From Terebella lapidaria (Eukaryota > Annelida > Polychaeta > Terebellida > Terebellidae): a DNA stretch of 64,000 nucleotides. This document shows, in pieces, positions 1-57,728 of this stretch. Position numbers and translations under genes: made by a program. The number at the start of each line of letters is the position of its first letter. Positions within the stretch are counted from its first letter, which is position 1. Under the pieces are notes generated by a model. It searched no databases. It was given only the letters and a program-made list of their open reading frames with translations, and was not told the origin of the DNA. The DNA lies in contig OX424566.1 of NCBI GenBank assembly GCA_949152475.1, forward strand, positions 11,493,177 through 11,557,176. Reading direction: 5' to 3'.

Positions 1-3000
1 TCTGAGCAGAACTTAAGTTCTCAACTGTGAAAGGTCCAACTAGTTGTGATAGGAGGGGGGCACAGGTGGCGAGCATCTTGAGCCGGGCAGCTCGATAGGT
101 TGGGCAATGTAGAATGTAATGAATGGTATCCTCGTTGCAGAAGCCACAGCTTCCACAAACTGAACTATTAATGAAGTTATATTTCTTCCTATGACTGTTT
201 AGTCCACTTAGCCCCATTCGCATACGAGCCTGATGTACAGGACCACGGCCTGTACCGTAACAATATAAGGGGTTACTCTCTGGGGAAAATGAATCGTTAA
301 TCCTTCGCTTGAATACAGGAAAAGAAGGGGCCAATTTTATAGAAGAACTTAAATTATTCCATGCAGCTGCAGCGGAAATGAAAAATGATTTCTTATAGGC
401 AAGTGTCCGAGCTCGGGGAACTCTTAGGTCTCTAGCATTCCGTACTTCATAATGATGTGTTGCGGAAACCACGCCCGGGCAGAGTTCAGAGAGATACGGC
501 GGAGTAAGGCCATTCATTACTTTATACATCATGCATAACCGATAATAATTTCGTCGCACCTTTAGTGTGGGCCATCCCAAGTCATTGAGCAGGGCAGTAT
601 TACTGACTGAATTATAAGCACCAGTGCATGTCAACGCTGATGATCTCTGGACCCGCTCCAAGGCACCCGACAGATAATCTGGACAGTTGTTATGTATCAA
701 ATTTCCATATTCCAAAATAGGTCTAATAAAAGTGGTATAAATAGTCTCCTTACATTTCCTTGGCAATACATAAGCCAATCTTTTCAGCATATTCAACATG
801 GGCCCAGCTTTAGAAATCCGATCATGGATATGCATGTCCCAAGTCATGTCTTCTGTGAAAATAATTCCCAGATGTCTATGTTGAGCCACTCTAGAAATTT
901 CTTGCTTATTAAAAATAATAGGATCATAATTTAATCTGTCTTTTTTTCTCGAGAACACGATCATATTAGATTTTATGGCGCTGAATGAGACAGCCCATTG
1001 ACCGGCCCATTGATTCAATGTTTCGAGATCTAGGTTCAATTCCATGATGTTTTTTCTTGGGTCAGTAATTACTTTCATGAGGCATGTATCATCTGCATAT
1101 AGGAAAATATCACTCTCAATACCAACAGTTATGTCATTAATGAAAACTAGAAATAACAGTGGTCCCAGAATAGACCCCTGGGGAACACCTGCGCCTATGC
1201 CGAGAAAAGGAGACTGCTGACCTTGAATGACCACGCGTTGTGATCTGTTCATCAAGTAATCAACTATCCATGATAACATTGGTCCTGAAACACCTATTGA
1301 TTGAAGTTTATGAATCAAGCCGGCATGCCATACTCTGTCGAATGCCTTGGAGATGTCCAGAAATACCATACAAACATCCATATGCATGTCAAGATTCTGA
1401 TATATATTATGTGTTAACATGACCAACTGATTCATTGCTGAATCCAACGGTTTAAATCCCGAATTTCTCCATGTTAAGAGACCGTTCGTCAGACAGTAGT
1501 TATACAACTGATTGAATACAAGACGTTCTAGTACTTTCCCCAGAACAGAAATTAAGGACACAGGTCTATAATTTGATTTGATATTGCTGTCACCTTTTTT
1601 ATAAAGAGGTGTAATATTGGCCCGTTTCCACAAGTCAGGATATTTTCCAGTACGTAGTGAAAAATTAAATAGATCGGTTATATGACCACATACAGAAGGA
1701 GATACATTTCTTAGAAGTCTATTGCTTATGCCATCTGGGCCATTCGCTTTGTTCGTATCGAGATGAGAGAGCACGTTCAACACATCATTGTACTGAACAC
1801 GTACATCTGTGAAACGGGAACATGTTGTATAAAACAAGGGTGGCATTGCACTGGGGGGTTCAAGGATCGAACACTGTTCAGCAAAATATTCATTTAGTAA
1901 CGTAGTTTTGCCTATATTTGTCGAATAGCTTGACCCATTATCAATGAGAGTTGGAATACCAGAATTTACCTTTGCGCCCAATAAGCTTTTGGCCACCTTC
2001 CAATATTCCTATGGTGTTACGGGATTATTTAATTTATTAACCATCTTTTCATTATATGCCTTTTTTGCAAGAATACGAACAATTTTTGATCTCCTGCGCT
2101 CCTCTTTATAAATTTCATAATGATATGGATTGCCGGTACGGCGGTAACGCTTATGCCATCTATCCCGAACAGAGTCAGCGTGCCGACATGCACTGGTAAC
2201 GTACGGTTTATCTCCTGGTCTAATTACAACGGATTTAAAAGGTATGAATGTCTTTGACGTGTCCAAAATAAAATCCGTGAATTTAGCGGTCCGAGTGTCA
2301 ATATCATCAGCAATATCGAATGAAAAATTATTCAGGGCTTCGCTCAAATCAGGATAATTCGCATTTGAGTAGTCCCAGATATCCCTACGATATGGCTTAT
2401 CTTTGATGTAAGAAAATGCACAGCTGCATGAAACAATACAATGGTCCATGTTTGATAAAGGTGAGTGAACCTGTATATCTGATAAATATCCTGGTGAATC
2501 AGTGATTATTAGATCCAACAACGTGGCTGAAGTTTCAGTGTATCTTGTTGGCTCTGAGACCAGCTGGTGCAAATTGTACGAGTTAAGAACATCTACAAAA
2601 GCTAATCTCAGCTCACTAGAACGATGGTCATCATCCCATTCTAAACATCTATCGTTGAAGTCACCAGTGATTATGATGCAGTCTACGTCCAGTAGCAGGA
2701 CATTGTCCATACTAAACTGGAACGATTCTATAAACCTCTGCACATTAACAGACAAATTATTAGTAATGGGTGGACGATAATAGACCGACACCAGGAGTTT
2801 ATCGGATCCAATGTTTACTTGAATCCAAATGCATTCAACTGAGTTAGACTCCAAATCGTCGCGTCTAATCGATATTAAATTTCTTGAGACATAGATTAAC
2901 ACTCCACCACCATGTCTGTTTCTGTCCCGTCTATAAGTGTAATACCCATCAACTGATACATCATTATCCACTATTGATGGATCTAGCCATGTTTCACTAA

Positions 3001-3321
3001 TACAAATGATGTCCATCTTATTTTGCAGTGCAAAGTGTGCTATTTCATCCAGTTTGAAATTAGCATTTGTCGAACGATCATGTGTTCCTAGACTGCGAGC
3101 ATTCATATGACAGATCTTGATGACAGATCATGGTTCGGTCCCGGATTCATATGCACATCACCAGCAAGTAACAGGAGTAAAGTAATCATAACAATGACCC
3201 TCATGCTGTGGATCGCAGTCCGACCACTATTGAGAGGAATGCATTTGACTTTGATGGGTCGTCCATAACAGAACACATGCCACAGTCCTATAGCTGCCCT
3301 ATACTGCCCGATACCTATCAT
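1..3321 (-). pseudogene. LINE ORF2, copy 1: APE endonuclease and reverse transcriptase, partial
   Basis: ORF2 performs target-primed reverse transcription: an AP-like endonuclease nicks DNA and the RT copies the element RNA. Visible here are a leader with a 2A-like GDVHMNPGP (3136-3162), endonuclease motifs ISETWL, YYRPP, ITGDFN and LLDLIITDSP, RT motifs NYRPVSL, LDISKAFDRVWH, GVPQGSILGPLLF and FLYADD (YADD codons 1088-1099), and a C-terminal CGSCG...HYILHC cluster that reaches the window edge. The start is taken as the ATG at 3321 in the context accATGa, matching copy 2; an in-frame ATG at 3339 also exists. The gene is broken by a one-base frameshift near 3106-3125, where the leader frame shifts relative to NARSLG, and by a TAG at 2009-2011 where copy 2 has Lys. 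The frame from 2008 to position 1 reads open in every stretch I translated. Confidence 0.92.
3136..3162 (-). other. 2A-like motif in ORF2 leader, copy 1
   Basis: These codons read GDVHMNPGP, directly after a hydrophobic run of Leu residues. The known ribosome-skipping 2A consensus is D(V/I)ExNPGP. All key residues are present except the Glu, which is His. Copy 2 has GDVHTNPGP at the same place. Whether the His form still skips cannot be judged from sequence. Confidence 0.7.
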
Positions 3322-3557: not shown

Positions 3558-3935
3558 TGTAAAGGTGGAACATACACATTACAAAAACGATAGCAGTTCG
3601 TGATCATACAGAACCGTGTTATATGGTTGCAGTTATATACAAGATCATAGAAAATATAGTCCATGAATCTCACAATTTGGTTGTTCGATTTGCAAATCGA
3701 ACATTTTTTACAGTAACAAAACAACATAGCACTTGGTTGAATTACACATCGTAATACTTATATTACTCACACGCAGCAAGCCACCAGAACGATTTGCGAA
3801 TGATATACAAGGCATACAATCATACAGTGAACGCATTTGAATCAAATTTATAAACATGGATCAAATACGCGTGCGGTACCAAGTACTATCCACAATATAC
3901 AACCGCCGCAGTTGCTTCGTTTAGTTAGTATCAAA
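3558..3935. other. LINE copy 1 spacer, ORF2-proximal part
   Basis: No gene is seen. It holds a perfect 20-base palindrome centred on tttgcaaa at 3683-3702. It also has a short motif (tagtcc, then atgaatctcacaa) near 3657 that recurs near 5720 on the other side of the satellite array, as if the array grew between two copies of a short repeat. Confidence 0.6.
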
Positions 3936-5535
3936 CACCATAGACTGCAGTTTCATATGTCATGAAATGTACAACGCACACCAACAAACACAGTAATCAC
4001 CATAGAATGCAGTTTCATATGTCAAGAAATGTACAACGCACACCAACCAACATAGCAATCACCATAGAATGCAGTTTCATATGTCACAAAATGTACAACG
4101 CTCACCAACAAACATAGAAATCACCCTAGAATGCAGTTCCATGTCACACAGTGTACCACTCACATCAGCAAACATAGCAAATCACCATAGAATGCAGTTT
4201 CATATGTCAATAAATGTACAAAGCACACCAGCATACATAGCAATCACCCTAGAATGCAGTTTCATGTCACAAAATGTACAACGCTCACCAGCAAACACAG
4301 AAATCACCCTAGAATGCAGTTTCATGTCAAAGAATGTACAACACACATCACCAAACAAAGCGAACACCATAGAATGCAGTCTCATGTGTCAAGAAATGTA
4401 CAACGCACACCAAAAAACATAGGAATCATCATAGAATGCAGTTTCATATGTCACAAAATGTACAACGCTCACCAGCAAACATAGAAATCACCCTCGAATG
4501 CAGTTTCATATCACACAATGTACAACTCACATCAGCAAACATAGCAAATCACCCTAGAATGTAGTTTCATGTCACAGAATGTATAACACACATCAGCAAA
4601 CAAAGCAATCACCATAGAATGCAGTTTCATGTCACAAAATGTACAACGCACACCAGTAAACATAGCAATCACCATAGAATGCAGTTTCATGTCAAGAAAT
4701 GTACAACGCACACCAACAAACATAGGAATCACCATAGAATGCAGTTTCATATGTCACAAAATGTACAACGCTCACCAGCAAACATAGAAATCACCCTCGA
4801 ATGCAGTTTCATATCACACAATGTACAACTCACATCAGCAAACATAGCAAATCACCCTAGAATGCAGTTTCATATGTCAAGAAATGTATAACGCACACCA
4901 ACAAACATAGCAATCACCCTAGAATGCAGTTTCATGTCACAGAATGTATAACACACATCAGCAAACAAAGCAATCACCATAGAATGCAGTTTCATGTCAC
5001 AAAATGTACAACGCACACCAGTAAACATAGCAATCACCATAGAATGCAGTTTCATGTCACAAAATATACAACGCACACCAGCAAACAAAGAAATCACCCT
5101 AGAATGCAGTTTCATGTCACAGAATGTACAACACACATCAGCAAACATAGCAATCACCATAGAATGCTGTTTCATGTCACAAAATGTACAACACACATCA
5201 GCAAACATAGCAATCACCATAGAATGCAGTTTCATGTCACAAAATGTACAACGCAAAGTCACACACCAGCAAACAAAGAAATCACCCTAGAATGCAGTTT
5301 CATGTCACAAAATGTACAACGCACACCAGCAAACATAGCGATCACCATAGATTGCAGTTTCATGTCAAGAGATGTACAATGCACACCAACAAACGTAACA
5401 ATCACCATGGAATCCAATTTTCTATTTCACAACATGTATAACGTACACCAGCAAACATAGCAATCACCATAAATGCACTTTCATGTCAAGAAATATACAG
5501 TGCGCACCAGCAAGCATAGCAATTCCCATCGAATG
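3936..5535. repeat. 60-62 bp tandem array inside the LINE copy 1 spacer
   Basis: About 26 units, each starting caccatagaatgcagtttca and continuing with gtcacaaaatgtacaacgc and a caccagcaaacatag-like block. Units with an extra 'at' before gtca are 62 bp and the others 60 bp; one unit near 5244-5290 is expanded and the last ones decay. Because 60 is divisible by three and the unit lacks stops in several frames, the array yields long repetitive frames on both strands (for example 4924-5460 plus and 4870-5262 minus) encoding 20-residue repeats such as MQFHVTKCTTHT. I regard these frames as by-products. Removing the array leaves a spacer of about 0.96 kb, close to the 995 bp of copy 2. Confidence 0.95.
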
Positions 5536-5880: not shown

Positions 5881-6975
5881 CTATGATAGTTCACCTCGTA
5901 CAGTCATCAGAATTTGCCCCAGCATGTTTTTACCAGGCCACCTTGACTCGTCGAAAGCAGATTTGTCAGCACGGTCAACACCAGTACCCCAGATCTCGTC
6001 GTGAGGATTGGATTCCGCTAGGCTACGAATTCCAGTGTTGAGAAGAACGGAACGAAGATACGGGGACTGTGTGAACTTTGCCCTAACCGCAGACTCCATC
6101 ACTTCCCTACTTTTGACGGAACTGTTCCAGCTTTTATCACCTCCACCTACGGATTTGCAGAGAGCTTTCTGTTTTGCCGGATACGAAGTGGCCATAACCT
6201 CAGAAGCTAAGAAAGATTCATTGTAATGGATACACTTGTGGTAATAGAAACATTGTTCCACACAATTGAAATGGAGACCGTCTAATTGGAAATTGGCAGG
6301 GTGGAAGTTTGACAGCTGGCTTTGCATACCATAGAACAAAGTCATAACATCATTTGACGTAGACCCGTTACGACTTGAAGGTCAGTAGGGAGAGTGTGTA
6401 GTGTGTCAATGAAATATGGCAAACCATTGATGATGAGTTTGTCATTGGATAGATAGGCGTTTCCCTTATATTTATCCAAGGTTTGGGCATACTCAGCTAT
6501 ACCCTGGAGAACACGTCTACGCCTGCCAATTTCCTCTGGGTTACAGCACTTTATGTACTTCCCACTGGACAGTGTTGAACGTTTTGCAAACACTGCTTCC
6601 TTATCTAGATAGTGGTGGAACTTTGCTATAATAGGACGGGTTTTGTTCTTGTGGAATCTTCCAGATCGATGTACACGTAAGAACATGCGTTTTTCGTATG
6701 GAATACCAAGTTCGCTGAGGGTTTCCGCAATGGGATCCCAACAGTTTTCTCGGGGATTCCACAGAACAAAAGACAATCACGTCGTTGGTACGATTCGACT
6801 TTCAGGAGGCGATCATTCAGTGATATATTGATACGTTTTTGAATGTCATATCCAAATTTCAGATTTTTATTTTCTCCTGAAAGTGTTTCCACTTGATTTG
6901 TCAGTGATTCAACCTTTTTGTCCAAGGTGGATTTTACATCAGCAATTTCGGTGTTTGTTTTATGGTGGGTATTCT
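5881..6975 (-). pseudogene. LINE ORF1 with NADAR domain, copy 1 (5'-truncated, two frameshifts)
   Basis: Three overlapping frames (about 6975-6745, 6750-6342 and 6345-5881) together match copy 2 ORF1 from its coiled coil to its stop. In order they carry a heptad-like coiled coil, the L1-ORF1-like RNA-binding segment (VESYQRRDCLLFCGIPE), its C-terminal domain (RVHRSGR, RPIIAKF, YLSNDKLII) and a NADAR domain (LSNFHPANF, VEQCFYYHK, RAKFTQ, YLRSVLLNT, WG.G.D, WPG, LGQILM). Frameshifts lie near 6740-6755 and 6342-6350. NADAR residues are about 58 percent identical to copy 2 by hand count and the domain itself is uninterrupted over 154 codons (5881-6345). NADAR proteins of the YbiA/DUF1768 family act on ADP-ribose-like N-glycosidic bonds; the role in a retrotransposon is unknown. 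Confidence 0.9.
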
Positions 6976-10426: not shown

Positions 10427-11479
10427 GTTGTTGGGCAGTTGTATACTAATTCCATCATGTGTACAGTAGAAACAACTACATTTAACACATTGTCTGCCCC
10501 TGATGACGCCAGTGTGTCTTTGGATAAACTATTTGGTCGGGCTTTGTTTCTATTGCAAAATGTTGTATATTAGGTTGACACACTTTCAAAAGTAACGTCT
10601 ATCAAAACATTTGATTTCTCCACTTTGTACACAACTATACCTCATTCTGAACTGAAATCTCAGCTTAAAAAACTAATCAATAATTCATTTTTCTCTAAAA
10701 AGTGACAACGTCGGTACCACTATATTGTAGTTAAATATAATACCGCTTATTTTGTTAAAGGCGACTCTGATGCCCCATACAAATATACTGAAATAGATGT
10801 GGTAAATATGGTTAATTTTCTGATTGATAATATTTTTGTGGAATTTGGTGGTCGAATATTTCAACAAACTATTGGTATTCCCATGGGTACAAACTGTGCA
10901 CCATTATTGGCAGACCTGTTTTTATACTCATATGAATCAGATTTTATCCAACATTTACAAAGAGGAGGTTCTAAGAAACTAACATGTAATTTTAATTTCA
11001 CTTTCCGATACATAGATGATGTATTGTCGCTAAATAATCCCAAGTTTGGTGATTATTTGGATATCATATATCCTAAGGAACTTGAAATTAAGGATACTAC
11101 AGAATCCGCTAATTTTTCCAACTATCTAGACCTGAGGTTGGAGATTGATAATGATTCTAACCTGTCAACTAGATTATATGACAAACGTGATGATTTCAAT
11201 TTTTCCATAGTCAATTTCCCTTTTCTAAGCAGCAACATTCCTATGTCACCGGCATATGGTGTGTTTGTTTCTCAACTTATACGCTATTCCAGAGCTAGTT
11301 GCAAATATGAGGACTTTGTCTATCGAAGTGCCCAGCTAGTCTCTAAACTGCTACGACAAGGATATGTTTTACCAAGACTTATCGCTGCGTTTAAGAAATT
11401 CTATGGACGTCATCATGATCTGGTTGATAAATACAGCAAATCCATGTCTGCCATGCAACTAGATCTATTTTCATGTTAA
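10427..11479 (+). pseudogene. Penelope-like reverse transcriptase, degenerate
   Basis: The frame reads from before SAPDDASVS through FDFSTLYTTIP, GIPMGTNCAPLLADLF, RYIDDVLS (YIDD codons 11009-11020), DKRDDFNFSIVNFPF, SPAYGVFVSQLIRY and KFYGRHHDLVDKY to a stop at 11479. These are the RT palm motifs and the conserved C-terminal block of this RT group. Two in-frame stops break it: TAG at 10571-10573 and TGA at 10703-10705. Relative to the fragment at 51327-51429 there is also a two-base deletion near 10438. The region from 10706 to the end is continuously open (about 257 codons), so decay is modest. The frame ends soon after the RT with no endonuclease domain. Confidence 0.85.
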
Positions 11480-51429: not shown

Positions 51430-51831
51430 TTTGCGTTAATATGGCCGCTTGAAGGAGGTGGTGTGAATTCTGTGTGGGCATAAAATCGAAAATTTGGAAT
51501 AGAAACATGTAACACCGGGAGTCGAACATTTGCTGGGATATGTGTGATGGACCCCAGATTTGGATGGGACATGCTACTGCCTGGTTTGGACCACAACTTT
51601 CGTGATATCAACATTTGTGATAAGTATCCAATTATCATATACAACACACATATATACTGACTTTTGTCATGGCTGAGTGAACACTGACCACTGCCTTTTG
51701 GTGTGCGTTCCTTGTGTGCTTTGAAGTTCGCCCGTGTGTGAGTTCTTTGTGTGCTTCGACATTCGTCACGGTTGTTGACAAGGAACCCAGTTACACATAC
51801 ACTGTGGTTGGGAACAATTACCATTGCTTGT
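51430..51831 (+). promoter_or_regulatory. 5' UTR and presumed internal promoter of LINE copy 2
   Basis: About 400 bases before the first ATG of ORF1. Full-length LINEs usually carry an internal promoter here; I see no TATA box. An imperfect direct duplication (gtgtgcgttccttgtgtgct and gtgtgagttctttgtgtgct, 51700-51765) lies within. Confidence 0.5.
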
Positions 51832-53133
51832 ATGCACTGTGCTTCGTCGGACAGTAGTATTGATGGTATTGACAGATCTCCTGTTATCCAGCTGTCGCCC
51901 AAAAGATCCAAAATGAATACGATTAATAGTGATAATACCGACCTGTCTATGAGCACATCCGCATCACGTAGTGTATCTGATAAACTGGACGCTCTGATGA
52001 CACAAATGACCGCCCTCCGTGCCTCTGTTAACAAAAACACAGATGAACTACGTGTCGTCGCCTCAGGATTAAATAATAAAGTTGACGATCTGAAACAAAC
52101 AATCGATGTTTTGACTGATGAGAATAGCAAACTTAAAATTGATTGCGACGCTCAAAAGATCATAAATCGCAATTTAAATGACCGTCTTATCAAAGTTGAG
52201 AGCTACCAGCGACGAGATTGCTTACTCTTTTGTGGCATTCCTGAGAACAAGAAGGAAGATTGTTGGGAACGCATCGCTGATGTACTCAAAACCCTGGACA
52301 TCCCCTACAACAGCCGTATGTTTCTCCGTGTCCACCGCTCCGGGAGATACCGCAAAAATCGTATCAGGCCAATCATAGCCAAATTTCATCATTTTCTTGA
52401 CAAAGAACTGGTGTATTCCAAACGCAAAAATCTCCCTCCTGACATGTATATCAAATGTTGTTATCCTGAGGAGATCGGTAGGCATCGGCGTGTCCTCCAG
52501 GCTATTGCTGAGCATGCGCAATCTATCCAGCAATACAAGGGCAATGCATATCTGTCGAACGACAAGCTGATAGTTGATGGTCAGCAGTACAGAGTAGGCT
52601 CCCTGGAAACTCTTCCGGATGACCTGAAAGTGCCAACGGGTTCGGTCACTGATGGCAAAACCACTCTATTCTACGGCCTCCAATGTCCGTTATCCAATTT
52701 TTACCCAACATCTTTCACTCACGATGGTTTGTCGTTCAACAGTGTGGAGCAGTGCTTCTACTACAACAAATGTGTTCATTATAAATCACCGTCTGTCGCT
52801 CGCGAAATCTTGGCGACATCAGACCCTGTAAAGCAAAAAGAACTTGGTAAGAAAGTGAACTCCGACGATGATAGCTGGAATAAAGCAGACTTTAGTTCTG
52901 AAATCATGATGACGGCGCTACGAGCAAAATTCACACAGTCTGGATATCTCCGCTCTGTTTTGTTGAACACATGCCATCAAACCTTAGCAGAGGCGAACCC
53001 CTATGACTCTGTCTGGGGCATTGGTATGGATACGAAGGAGAAGACGGTCTTCAATTCCCTCTCTTGGCCCGGTAGTAATCGGCTCGGTCAGTTCCTCATG
53101 AAGTTGCGCGATGAACTGAGAGATAATATGTGA
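51832..53133 (+). CDS. LINE ORF1 protein: coiled coil, RNA-binding domain, NADAR domain
   Basis: 433 residues from the ATG at 51832; the open frame extends upstream to 51751 without an ATG, and an ATG at 51913 has the better context (aaaATGa). In order: a polar Ser/Thr-rich N-terminus, a coiled coil (about residues 49-123: DKLDALMTQMTALR, LNNKVDDLKQTIDVL), an L1-ORF1-like RRM (about 121-195: VESYQRRDCLLFCGIPE) and its C-terminal domain (RVHRSGR, RPIIAKF, AYLSNDKLIV, about 166-255), which package element RNA in relatives, and a NADAR domain (about 278-430: PLSNFYP, SVEQCFYYNK, RAKFTQ, YLRSVLLNT, WGIGMD, WPG, LGQFLMKLRDEL). NADAR enzymes (YbiA/DUF1768) cleave N-glycosidic bonds of ADP-ribose-like substrates, including ADP-ribosylated guanine in some systems. 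The Glu of VEQ, the conserved WG.G.D and LGQ.LM blocks are present, so activity is possible. No stop or frameshift. Confidence 0.93.
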   Translation: MHCASSDSSIDGIDRSPVIQLSPKRSKMNTINSDNTDLSMSTSASRSVSDKLDALMTQMTALRASVNKNTDELRVVASGLNNKVDDLKQTIDVLTDENSKLKIDCDAQKIINRNLNDRLIKVESYQRRDCLLFCGIPENKKEDCWERIADVLKTLDIPYNSRMFLRVHRSGRYRKNRIRPIIAKFHHFLDKELVYSKRKNLPPDMYIKCCYPEEIGRHRRVLQAIAEHAQSIQQYKGNAYLSNDKLIVDGQQYRVGSLETLPDDLKVPTGSVTDGKTTLFYGLQCPLSNFYPTSFTHDGLSFNSVEQCFYYNKCVHYKSPSVAREILATSDPVKQKELGKKVNSDDDSWNKADFSSEIMMTALRAKFTQSGYLRSVLLNTCHQTLAEANPYDSVWGIGMDTKEKTVFNSLSWPGSNRLGQFLMKLRDELRDNM

Positions 53134-53934
53134 CTGTAAGGTGCATCTTGAATCCAATCACAATATGTACTTGTGACATTATTGACCATGATACCGTGTT
53201 TCGTCTGTTAATTGCGATGTTTGTCTGGCACTGTTGATCGTGTTTGTACCACCGATTCACAATCGATTTCGTTGCAAACCGAATTCGTCTTGATGTATAT
53301 ACCCGGTAAGGTGCATATTGTTGGTGATTTTGTTTTTTGGAATATTGGTCAGATACTGTGTAACATAGGTGTTACCACTGATTTGCAATCGATTGCGTGA
53401 CGAACCACTTTGTTTTGCGGTATATAAGGTGCATATTGTATATTTCGATTTCGTTGCAAACCGAATTCGTCTTGATGTATATACCCGGTAAGGTGCATAT
53501 TGTTGGTGATTTTGTTTTTTTGGAATATTGGTCAGATACTTTGTAACATATGTGTTACCACTGATTTGCAATCGATTGCGTTACGAACCACTTTGTTTTG
53601 CGGTATATAAGGTGCATATTGTACATATATGGTGCATAATGTTCACAGTTCAAGTACATGACTTGTCATTCATGAGATATCTATCGGTGATATTTCTGGA
53701 AAAACTTATATGCAACATTGTAAAATCGAGTTAAGCTTTGGATGTTGATTTATCTGGTTTTACTCATGATGGATATTGTGTCAGTATTTTGGTTTCGTCC
53801 ATCCCACATAAGCCCACAAAAATTATTCATATTACTCTTAAATCTGGAGTGTGTTTTCAAACTCTCGCGTGTGAAACATTGAAATGTACTAGTCCGATAT
53901 CAGAGTTCCGCTGAATCGCTTCTCATTATTGGTC
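53134..53934 (+). other. ORF1-ORF2 spacer of LINE copy 2
   Basis: AT-rich region of unusual length for a LINE. It holds a 182 bp direct duplication and several ggtgcatattgt words. The function is unknown; internal ribosome entry or reinitiation are possible roles. Confidence 0.6.
53263..53627. repeat. 182 bp tandem duplication in the LINE spacer
   Basis: tcgatttcgttgcaaaccga occurs at 53263 and 53445, and the rest of both units is almost identical (cttgatgtatatacccggta, aatattggtcagatact, gatttgcaatcgattgcgt). Confidence 0.95.
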
Positions 53935-54132
53935 ATGATGTATATTGCTTCGTTCATACTATTTGTGATCGCCGGAACGGGTGAATTCACCACACATAAC
54001 TGCTTTGGTATTTTGATAAATAATGAACATGAACATACTTCACTTGTTAATTTATATCGCTCTGAGGGGGGCGTGTGTGTTTGGCAATTGATTAACTATT
54101 TTGTGCACTTGTTGCACCACGACCCGCCATGA
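53935..54132 (+). CDS. Small ORF overlapping the ORF2 start, LINE copy 2
   Basis: 65 codons starting MMYIASFILFVIAG, a hydrophobic segment that could be a signal peptide or membrane anchor, and ending HHDPP-stop. Its TGA overlaps the ORF2 ATG as ATGA (54129-54132). The counterpart in copy 1 also ends in PP-stop with the same overlap and shares RSEGG...LIN. The arrangement would suit termination-reinitiation, by which ribosomes leaving this frame could start ORF2; such coupling is known for some non-LTR elements. The N-terminal halves of the two copies do not align, so real coding is uncertain. Confidence 0.35.
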   Translation: MMYIASFILFVIAGTGEFTTHNCFGILINNEHEHTSLVNLYRSEGGVCVWQLINYFVHLLHHDPP

Positions 54133-57100
54133 TATGCATTGGGCAGTACCGGGCAGCTATAGGCTTGTGGCATTTGTTCTGTTGCAGAAAGAATATGCGC
54201 ATGACGATATGTGGTTCTAATTCGTCAAGATGTACAGTGACGATTAAAATATATAAACTGGCTTGTATGCTATGTATTCTTCTACTTTTATCGGGTGACG
54301 TGCACACGAACCCGGGACCTGCAGAAAACAGAAAACATCTTGAGCTTTGTCACATTAATGCCCGCAGCCTCGGGTGCAGAGATTATGTATCTAAGGCTAA
54401 TTTCAAATTGGATGAAATTGAATCTTTTGCCATTGATGGTAATTTCGATGTTATATGTATCAGCGAAACATGGCTCGATGACTCGATTCGGACTGAGGAT
54501 ATATCAATCAGTGGTTATTCTGTAATCCGGAAGGATCGTAACCGACACGGTGGAGGGGTTCTCGTATACTTCACTGATACTTTATGTGTCTCGAGGAAAC
54601 CTGAAATAGAAGACGATCAAACTGAATGTATATGGGTTCAGATAAATATCGGGCGCCAGAATGTACTGGTATCGGTTTATTATCGCCCACCAGTTTCACA
54701 AGGGAGCGTGAATCAACGAACGGAATATTTTATCAGTCATTTGCAAAATAGCATTGACACAGCACTGTCGCTTAATGTGGATGCCATTATTATAACAGGC
54801 GACTTTAACGACAGATGTTCTAGTTGGGATGACTCGCACTCTACAAGCGAACTCAAGTTAGGCTTGTTTGATTTAGTAAATACTAATAACATGTTCCAAT
54901 TGGTTTCTGACCCCACCAGGTATAGAGAAACAACTGCAAGTTTGCTTGATTTGATTATTACGGACTCTCCCGGGTATGTAACTAACGTACAAATTCATTC
55001 ACCACTTGCGAATATGGATCATTGTATAGTATCTTGCACACTCAGTCTCTCATACACTGAAGATCGAGCCTTTATTCGCGATATTTGGGATTACTCCAAT
55101 GCCAACTATACCCAGTTGAATCAGTCCATTGAAAACTATGAATTTGAAGACTCTGGAGATGTCGACTCTCTCACAGACCACTTCACCAACTTTCTTTTAG
55201 ATGAAGCCAGTCGATTTATTCCTCACAAATTTGTAACAATCCGACCAAGAGATAAGCCATATATAACTAGTGCTTGTCGCCATGCTGATCGGGTGCGAGA
55301 TCGGTGGCATAAACGATACCGCCGATCTGGGAATCCACTTCATTATCAGATATACAGAGAGAAACGTAGCAAGGCGAAAATTACCAGGTCTTTGGCCAAA
55401 TCAGCGTATAATCAAAAAATGGTTGAACGTCTTAACAATGTTTCAACTCCAAAAGATTATTGGAAAATTGTTAAGAGTTTGCTCGGGGCAAAAGTAAAAT
55501 CAGGGGTGCCTACATTATGTGACAACGGTCAGGTTTACTCTACAAATACCGAGAAGGCCACTTTGTTAAATGAATACTTTGCAGAGCAGTCTTCTATCTT
55601 TGATTTACCTAGTGCTTTACCACCTTTGCGATATTTGACTACTGAACGTTTACGAAACATGACCGTCGACACTGCAAGTGTCCAGAATATCGTTGATACT
55701 TTAGATGTCAACAAGGCTAATGGACCAGACGGAATAAGTAATCGCTTATTAAAACATACATCATCATCCGTCTGTAGGCATCTAACGCATTTATTCAACC
55801 TGTCATTGGAAAGTGGAAAGTTTCCACATTGTTGGAAGCACGCTAATGTTACCCCTTTGTACAAAAAAGGTGACCATCAATCTAAATCGAATTATAGGCC
55901 AGTCTCTCTTCTGTCAGTGGTTGGCAAAATACTCGAGCGCTTGGTTTTCAAACATCTATATTCTTATTGTGTTGCAAATGATCTGCTCACTTGGCGTAAT
56001 TCGGGATTCAAGCCTCTGGATTCGGCGATGAATCAATTAATTCTGATAACGCATAATATCCATCGCGCAATAGATATGAAACAAGACGTTTGCATGGTTT
56101 ATTTAGACATATCAAAAGCCTTTGACAGAGTATGGCATATTGGGCTACTACATAAGTTAAAAACATTTGGTGTTGAGGGCAAAATACTAAGCTGGCTTGA
56201 CGACTATCTTTCGAATAGAAAACAGAAAGTTGTCATAAATGGACAGCAATCCCCAGGTATCAAAATTAGATCCGGGGTACCGCAAGGTTCTATATTAGGA
56301 CCATTGCTATTTTTGATATTCTTAAATGACATTACTTAAGATATAAATAGTGAAATTTTCTTGTATGCGGATGACACAGCACTCATGAAAGTAATTACGG
56401 ATCCCCGTCAAAGCATCCGAGAAATAAACTTGGATCTAGAGACAATAAGTCAATGGGCTAATCAGTGGGCTGTTACATTTAGTCCATCAAAATCCAAGAT
56501 GATGATTTTTTCTAAAAAACAATCTCACGATAATTACGACAATGTTGTTTTCGACAACGAAACTGTGAATCTGGTTAAGGAACATTGTCACCTAGGTGTT
56601 ATCTTGAGTGAGGATTTATCGTGGTCGAGTCATATCCGCAATCGTATTGCAAAAGCGGGTCCTATGATAAATATGCTTAAGCGCATGTCCAATATAATAC
56701 CCCGTAAATGCAAAGAAAATATATACAAAACATTTATCAGGTCTGTTCTGGAATATGGTTGCTTGTTGTATCACAACTGTACAGGGAATATGACCAATAT
56801 CCTAGAAAAGTGTCAACGGTCAGTTGCCATTACTTGCACTGGGGCTTATTCATCTGTAAGCAATAGTGCCTTACTCTCTGAGTTGGGCTGGCCTACACTG
56901 AAAACGCTTCGAGACTATTTCCAGATTTCGACTATGTACAAAATCTTGAACGGGCTCACACCGCGTTATTTGAGAAATATTTGTCCGGATTTTAGATCTG
57001 ATTCCCACGATCATAGTCTCCGTAATTCGCATGATCTCAGGATCCCAAACGCTAGAACCGTCTCTTATAAGAAATCATTCATTCCATCCGCTTCAAGAGC

Positions 57101-57578
57101 CTGGAATGGTATTGATGTAAACCTCAGGAATATACCGACACTTCCATTATTCAAGAAACGCTTGAAAGACTCTTTTTTTCCTGATAGTAATCCACTGTAC
57201 TCGTATGGCACTGGTCGGGCGCCTGTATTTCAAGCACGGTTAAGAATGGGACTTAGTGGTCTCAACTCCCACAGGAAAAAGTATAATTTCATTGCTGGTT
57301 CTGTTTGTGCATCCTGTGGGTTTCGAAATGAAGATTCGGTACATTATATGATTGATTGTCCTGCCTATGTAGCTGCCCGCACAAAGTTGTTTGCCACCAC
57401 CGCCCCCCTCCTCTCAAGCATATGGCCTGAATTAAATATGAACTCAATGTCAAACGCTGAAAAGAAACGCATCACTGACATTTTTCTGTTTGGACACAAT
57501 TTATGTGATGCCAATTGGAATAGAGAGTTATTTGACCAAGTTCATGAATTCATATTAAAGACGAATCGATTTTTGTAA
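54129..57578 (+). pseudogene. LINE ORF2: leader with 2A-like motif, APE endonuclease, reverse transcriptase; one stop codon
   Basis: 1,149 codons plus stop. Start ATG at 54129 (gccATGa), conserved in copy 1, followed by ICIGQYRAAIGLWH, also conserved. A hydrophobic stretch (residues 42-54) runs into GDVHTNPGP (56-64). The APE endonuclease follows (about 70-330: NARSLG, ISETWLD, GGGV, YYRPP, IITGDFN, LLDLIITDSP, NMDHCIVS), with catalytic-type Glu, Asp, Asn and His in place. The RT has KSNYRPVSLLS, LDISKAFDRVWH, GVPQGSILGPLLFLIF and FLYADD (YADD codons 56364-56375). Near the C-terminus is CASCG...HYMIDC, a CCHC-type cluster. A single TAA at 56337-56339, just before FLYADD, lies where copy 1 has Val; no frameshift is present. 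The stop would remove the RT active site, so this copy should be inactive alone. Confidence 0.95.
54294..54320 (+). other. 2A-like motif in ORF2 leader, copy 2
   Basis: The codons read GDVHTNPGP, against the ribosome-skipping consensus D(V/I)ExNPGP. Here Glu is His. Skipping between Gly 63 and Pro 64 would release a 63-residue hydrophobic leader from the endonuclease-RT. Confidence 0.7.

Positions 57579-57685: not shown

Positions 57686-57728
<43 letters not shown>
57579..57728 (+). terminator. 3' UTR, AATAAA and poly(A) tail of LINE copy 2
   Basis: Short 3' UTR of 111 bases with AATAAA at 57676-57681, followed eight bases later by 39 A (57690-57728). This is the copied end of a polyadenylated RNA. 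Confidence 0.95.

Follow-up and report, generated by a model that had tools for sequence, protein, structure and literature searches.

The ORF1 protein of a LINE from the annelid Terebella lapidaria was found to end in a NADAR domain, which is under strong purifying selection between families of such elements. In addition, the history of this ORF1-NADAR module differs from the history of the ORF2s that accompany it. It is a plausible reading, given slightly less than even odds, that the domain serves LINE ORF1p as a working part, acting at the ribonucleoprotein (RNP) as an ADP-ribose hydrolase that strips nucleic-acid bases and counters a host enzyme.

The window, meaning the whole stretch of 64,000 nucleotides that was analysed, contains on its plus strand an open frame of 460 codons (51751-53133) which spans the region 52663-53121. 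Counted from a candidate ATG at 51832, ORF1 comprises 433 aa (51832-53130, +; the listed ORF begins at 51751), and the ORF1 open frames of its relatives measure 492 aa (L052-L055) and 474 aa (L051). The structure model of ORF1 (pLDDT 89) displayed a coiled coil at 51970-52212 (+, model residues 47-127), and an L1-type RRM (residues 130-210 approximately) and CTD (211-262 approximately) were assigned to 52219-52617 (+) by the model and the structure match. In a structure comparison this model was matched to the trimer of human L1 ORF1p, and the combination of coiled coil, single RRM and CTD is that of a Type II (L1-type) ORF1. The L1-like RNA-binding domains proposed by the sequence-only reading were in this way confirmed by the structure model, without Pfam support: hmmscan gave no report of Transposase_22 for the window ORF1 at E values up to 0.1, and the ORF1 of L039 reached 17.5 bits, below the cut-off of 22.4.

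A spacer with a 183-bp tandem duplication (53263-53626, +) lies between ORF1 and ORF2. The latter (54129-57575, +) encodes an endonuclease and a reverse transcriptase (RT), as recognized by Pfam Exo_endo_phos and RVT_1, and is interrupted by a single in-frame stop (56337-56339) that separates the same-frame ORFs 54129-56336 and 56361-57575. Sequence inspection located a 3' poly-A tail at 57690-57728 (+). The search for a target-site duplication of this LINE returned only the 8-base word ACAATATA at 57728 and 51006, which is at chance level. Elsewhere in the window, a 226-aa frame (10799-11479, +) displayed RT-like motifs (RYIDDV) with no Pfam match at 0.001; it presumably resembles a Penelope-like RT. 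Close to the start of ORF2 a 2A-like motif was observed in the sequence (DVHTNPGP, 54297-54320, +), with the variants GDVHMNPGP in a second element of the window, named copy 1, and GDIETNPGP in the relative L031. Non-LTR retrotransposons were already known to carry 2A-like sequences, with the published pattern D[V/I]ExNPGP (PMC4981915). In the window motif, His replaces the Glu of that pattern. No paper was found in a literature search for 2A combined with CR1.

The NADAR domain of ORF1 occupies 52663-53121 (+), an assignment made by profile, PDB match, model and pocket residues. Residues 310-456 of ORF1 (52681-53121) matched PF08719 in hmmscan with E=7.6e-36 and 124.3 bits, the curated cut-off being 35.1 bits. 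A phmmer search of the PDB (E up to 0.01) gave two hits: 8BAU, itself a NADAR (6.5e-15), and 2B3W, the YbiA of E. coli (6.4e-8). The modelled domain has the YbiA/NADAR fold and could be superposed on 8BAU, which was solved with ADP-ribose, with an rmsd of 2.1 over 163 residues. Profile search, PDB matches and structure comparison all agree, which bears out the initial claim that ORF1 contains a NADAR domain.

To trace where the LINE NADAR came from, 116 NADAR domains were collected, of which four without a long enough match and 15 that were more than 80% alike were removed. In the FastTree analysis of the remaining 97, the 29 LINE-type domains (18 from the same genome and 11 metagenomic, including P0017) were placed on one side (support 0.972); this side also holds 10 environmental viral domains, P0013 and P0014, and is no clean clade. 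The viral NADARs found there were the IMG/VR domains L056, L057, L059-L062, L064, L066, L070 and L128. A search of the genome contigs found no relative of P0014.

The same fusion had been noticed on the minus strand in copy 1, about 58% identical and with 154 open codons in an otherwise frameshifted element, and PF08719, tblastn and the ORFs confirmed each of these points. The NADAR domain of copy 1 (5884-6345, -, in the 154-codon frame 5881-6345), which belongs to a second family, was recognized by hmmscan with E=1.6e-35 and 123.2 bits, and its identity to the window domain was 58% by tblastn and 59% in the multiple alignment. Its frame is free of stops although the N-terminal part of this ORF1 (6345-6925, -) is split over two frames (ORFs 6342-6776 and 6626-6925), where a 65% ORF1 match was detected at 6363-6758. 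The ORF2 of copy 1 (2-3183, -), identified from ORFs, Pfam and sequence, is truncated by the window edge and consists of a 2A-like part (approximately 3136-3183), endonuclease (2408-3121) and RT (2-2404). A minisatellite at 3932-5535, with 26 copies of a 60-bp unit, separates it from the NADAR domain of copy 1.

As to abundance, the Pfam search of the same genome (761.6 Mb, 438 contigs) provided 973 first-look candidates. The best 150 of these were scored and all exceeded the PF08719 cut-off; the domain lay within an open frame of at least 400 aa in 88 of the 150 and contained a stop within the NADAR match in six, although decayed copies are under-represented because only the best candidates were scored. 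Of 50 loci that were fetched, 42 also had a match to the N-terminal part of the window ORF1 next to the NADAR domain. Endonuclease/RT sequence was detected downstream on the same strand in 18 of the 20 long loci (L031-L050); it was looked for in L037 and L041 and none was seen. L034 (in reverse-complement coordinates) contains two NADAR stretches, 790-1152 and 1689-2150, one of them partial, as a tandem or nested copy. In L135 (1127-3553, -) an aspartic protease and an RT share one open frame of 808 aa with a C-terminal NADAR; we take the protease-RT frame to be Gypsy-like. Perhaps a piece of LINE ORF1 was inserted there without a shift of frame, or else NADAR occurs in another type of retroelement as well.

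Outside this genome, 5.8 billion proteins were searched and the best 7,995 candidates scored, which yielded 10 metagenomic proteins of 303-467 aa carrying ORF1 and NADAR (P0004 being a fragment); in one other ORF1-like protein no NADAR match was seen. Four further NADAR proteins, of 174-489 aa, were listed by a profile search.

Selection was evaluated on 57 domains, which were reduced to 43 distinct DNA sequences and then to 20 families at 95% identity; the partial extra domains L029_1 and L034_1 were left out, and the sample is biased to best-scoring copies. Pairwise dN/dS gave few usable pairs (8 of 903 with 0.1<dS<1.2, median 0.086; 0.32 in both pairs that include L037, a decayed copy), and a GY codon model was therefore applied. 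The NADAR omega was 0.068 (lnL -8150.3; 151 codons, 20 families), and fixing omega at 1 on the same tree lowered lnL to -8755.0, a cost of about 605 units. For the N-terminal part of ORF1 omega was 0.053 (212 codons, 16 families with long frames), so that the NADAR domain is constrained about as strongly as the other part of ORF1. Chance read-through was rejected on the PF08719 match and on this cost relative to omega 1.

Within the window family, six copies showed pairwise 4 to 22 base differences over 433 codons, and the window NADAR is identical in DNA to that of L053. This near-identity points to recent activity. Because the copies are too young for an informative dN/dS, the evidence for selection is that between families; the earlier case for selection is borne out across the 20 families, and the nearly identical copies of the window family are uninformative in this respect. 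The few substitutions in the latter, many of them non-synonymous, are as expected after insertion and would also suit a passive hitch-hiker derived from read-through and free of selection. Such a hitch-hiker is nevertheless extremely improbable, as it is refuted at the between-family level by the omega estimate, and the domain is retained beside at least three ORF2 types and in the 10 metagenomic proteins.

The ORF2s found beside ORF1-NADAR were assigned to groups A1 (window element and copy 1), A2 (L031, L032, L034 and L009), B (L042-L050) and C (L039 and L040), and those of L033, L035, L036 and L038 were about as similar to A1 as to A2. The whole ORF2 of L045 (group B) matched human L1 ORF2p over residues 2-879 with 316 bits (E=3.9e-93), compared with 75 bits for the window ORF2, of which only the part before the stop was used. 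The ORF2s of L042-L050 match that of L045 far better than the other ORF2 types and are of L1 type. The window ORF2 contains both endonuclease and RT and may, judging from its motifs, belong to the CR1/L2 group.

Among 11 elements, RT identity to the window element was 40-45% for the A2 type, 28% for C and 18-19% for B, whereas the corresponding NADAR identities were 34-39%, 39% and 38-41%. The RRM/CTD of the window family was 28-34% identical to those of the A2-grouping families, most of which are known from short loci where no ORF2 is in view, and its identity to those of B and L041 was 33-36%. With nine elements, the branch to B measured 2.68 for RT, 2.54 for the endonuclease, which comes from the same ORF2 and served as control, and 0.17 for NADAR. 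Forcing the RT topology cost 17.5 lnL units for NADAR versus 1.2 for the endonuclease, and forcing the RT branch proportions a further 71.5 versus 21.2; the latter cost means that the control is imperfectly proportional to RT, though far closer than NADAR. In a set of seven elements, RT topology and proportions were rejected by RRM/CTD (29.4 + 43.7) as well as by NADAR (13.2 + 52.6). Between the groups the module differs much less than the endonuclease and the RT do, and its transfer from one LINE lineage to another therefore seems likely. The natural reading is an exchange of whole ORF1s, for which CR1/L2/Jockey elements offer a precedent (PMC4120745).

Immediately behind ORF1-NADAR, two L1-type families have an additional ORF of about 225 aa (L045:2159-2833, +; also in L042, L043, L044, L046 and L049). 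That of L045, the only one scanned, is GDSL/SGNH hydrolase-like (PF13472, E=2.1e-15). This frame stands on its own between ORF1 and ORF2, in contrast to the esterases described inside CR1/L2 ORF1s (PMC4120745).

The pocket was compared using the numbering of the Phytophthora NADAR (PMC11543638). E29, K36, W72, E110, D115 and W118 of the window domain correspond to E43, K50, W89, E125, D130 and W133, and the equivalents of E43, K50 and E125 are all present in both the window copy and copy 1. Among the 43 distinct copies, W89, E125 and D130 are conserved in 43, E43 and W133 in 42 and K50 in 37; the sole copy lacking the E43 equivalent is the decayed L037, which has no detectable ORF2. The Glu at the E125 position in 43 of 43 copies assigns them to the YbiA subfamily, which is defined by Glu instead of Asp/His at this site (PMC11125620, PMC11543638). 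In a set of 29 sequences (19 families of the genome, L037 being omitted, and 10 metagenomic ORF1s), identity reached 93% or more at five of the six core pocket positions, compared with 20 of the 144 remaining columns (Fisher p 4.8e-4). In the same set the R93 equivalent is replaced in all 29 (12 Ser, 12 Ala, 3 Cys, 1 Val and 1 Met). At the position of Y84, which stacks on adenine, 16 sequences have Phe and the other 13 a non-aromatic residue or a gap, and only five keep the Asp of D86. To judge from these residues, the pocket core is kept in the manner of an enzyme, and the contacts to adenine and phosphate are altered. The majority of the catalytic and ligand residues proved to be retained, and none of the three outcomes named beforehand as refuting the sequence-only reading (no NADAR match, active-site loss or dN/dS near 1) occurred.

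K50 (K95) was reported to be essential for guanine-ADP-ribose hydrolysis (PMC11543638), and its equivalent is Gln in 6 of the 43 copies, which form two L1-type families (L042, L047, L049 and L043-L045). These families may be inactive or changed. Together with the variation at R93, Y84 and D86, this replacement would partly count against catalysis, and it would suit a NADAR that serves ORF1p as a non-catalytic module for binding (ADP-ribose, NAD or RNA) or assembly. That role is rather unlikely given the near-universal E43, W89, E125, D130 and W133 equivalents, of which the Gln families keep E43 and E125; moreover, mutations at the N-glycosidase-homologous residues of nematode SNA-3 are reported to impair its function (PMC9303266). 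The same deviations at the adenine and phosphate contacts would fit an active NADAR with a different ligand, for example a small conjugate of ADP-ribose or an RNA end (NAD-capped RNA or a product of RNA repair). N-glycosidase action of NADARs on riboflavin-pathway intermediates and proposed roles in RNA repair and on soluble ADP-ribose derivatives have been described (PMC9503650), and processing of RNA intermediates has been suggested (PMC12477816). A non-base substrate of this kind is unlikely, though worth considering; that the domain is tied to an RNA-binding protein is at least as much in keeping with a substrate bound to nucleic acid.

ORF1p coats LINE RNA, as is established for L1. For the favoured base-directed hydrolase, the coiled-coil ORF1p, trimeric by analogy, would coat the element RNA through its L1-type RNA-binding domains, and the C-terminal NADAR would most likely be a working N-glycosidase/ADP-ribose hydrolase tethered to the RNP. 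It could remove ADP-ribose from the bases of element RNA, cDNA or target DNA, and reverse transcription would then be unblocked despite a putative host ADP-ribosyltransferase. In the cited studies guanine is the base shown for NADARs, and bacterial, phage and oomycete members hydrolyse guanine-ADP-ribose in vitro (PMC11543638, PMC11125620). Shellfish are reported to possess the guanine ADP-ribosyltransferase CARP-1, with a proposed role in defence (PMC8053099), and guanine ADP-ribosyltransferases were reported in butterflies, too (PMC8053099, PMC11543638, PMC11125620). The role of NADARs in animals and other eukaryotes has been called unclear (PMC11125620).

A wider proposal, offered tentatively as possible and still doubtful, is that ORF1-NADAR is a retrotransposon eraser of host ADP-ribose marks on LINE RNA, cDNA or nicked target, which spread between L1-type and non-L1 elements by defeating the mark. 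Alternatively, the ADP-ribose that the domain strips could sit on proteins, in the RNP or at the target site, and PARP-type host enzymes would be countered in this way. ZAP belongs to the PARP family. Human retrotransposition is restricted by ZAP (PMC4441479), and in RNA viruses of animals NADAR domains and Macro domains largely exclude each other and have been proposed to act on similar ADP-ribosyl marks (PMC9503650). Action on proteins is quite improbable, however, as the NADAR activities measured in the cited sources concern DNA guanine bases and riboflavin intermediates, and action on protein is put forward there as a proposal.

Few natural contexts of nucleic-acid ADP-ribosylation are known. 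With omega at about 0.07 over 20 LINE families from a single genome, the domain points to the retrotransposition cycle as one of them. The presence of a well-preserved NADAR in many LINEs of this genome suggests that such LINEs may reverse a chemical marking of their own nucleic acid. One module beside deeply diverged ORF2s indicates that an ORF1 with its accessory enzyme can move as a unit beyond the Jockey superfamily.

Among known proteins, human L1 ORF1p (PDB 2yko, 2ykp) shares the Type II organization of coiled coil, RRM and CTD, and is not known to have a NADAR domain. Phytophthora NADAR 8BAU and E. coli YbiA 2B3W are not fused to a LINE ORF1, and window-type NADARs differ from 8BAU at the R93 equivalent, often at those of Y84 and D86 too. 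The NADAR-LINE ORF1 fusion itself is already known, since NADAR-like domains were noted in 2025 in ORF1 of Crassostrea gigas Tx1 LINEs (PMC12477816); among the matches listed from the open-access literature, only this paper states it. The likeness is that of a YbiA-family NADAR in a LINE ORF1 protein, and the oyster cases were presented as divergent Repbase hits of Tx1 elements with a suggestion of RNA processing. Here the window element, like several of its relatives, is paired with an ORF2 of non-L1 kind, and selection, pocket residues, structure and the separate module history were measured. In the relevant passages of PMC12477816, non-L1 ORF2 partners, selection, structure and module exchange do not figure. 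An Ectocarpus lineage of Gypsy LTR elements also has a NADAR in a retrotransposon protein, in this case Pol (PMC12477816). The reticulate ORF1 evolution of CR1/L2/Jockey elements involves whole-ORF1 transfer and domain shuffling (PHD, esterase) within the Jockey superfamily, and NADAR is nowhere mentioned in that paper (PMC4120745), whereas the separate history seen for ORF1-NADAR extends over ORF2s of both L1 and non-L1 type. What is new is the same ORF1-NADAR module beside deeply diverged ORF2s, both L1-type and non-L1.
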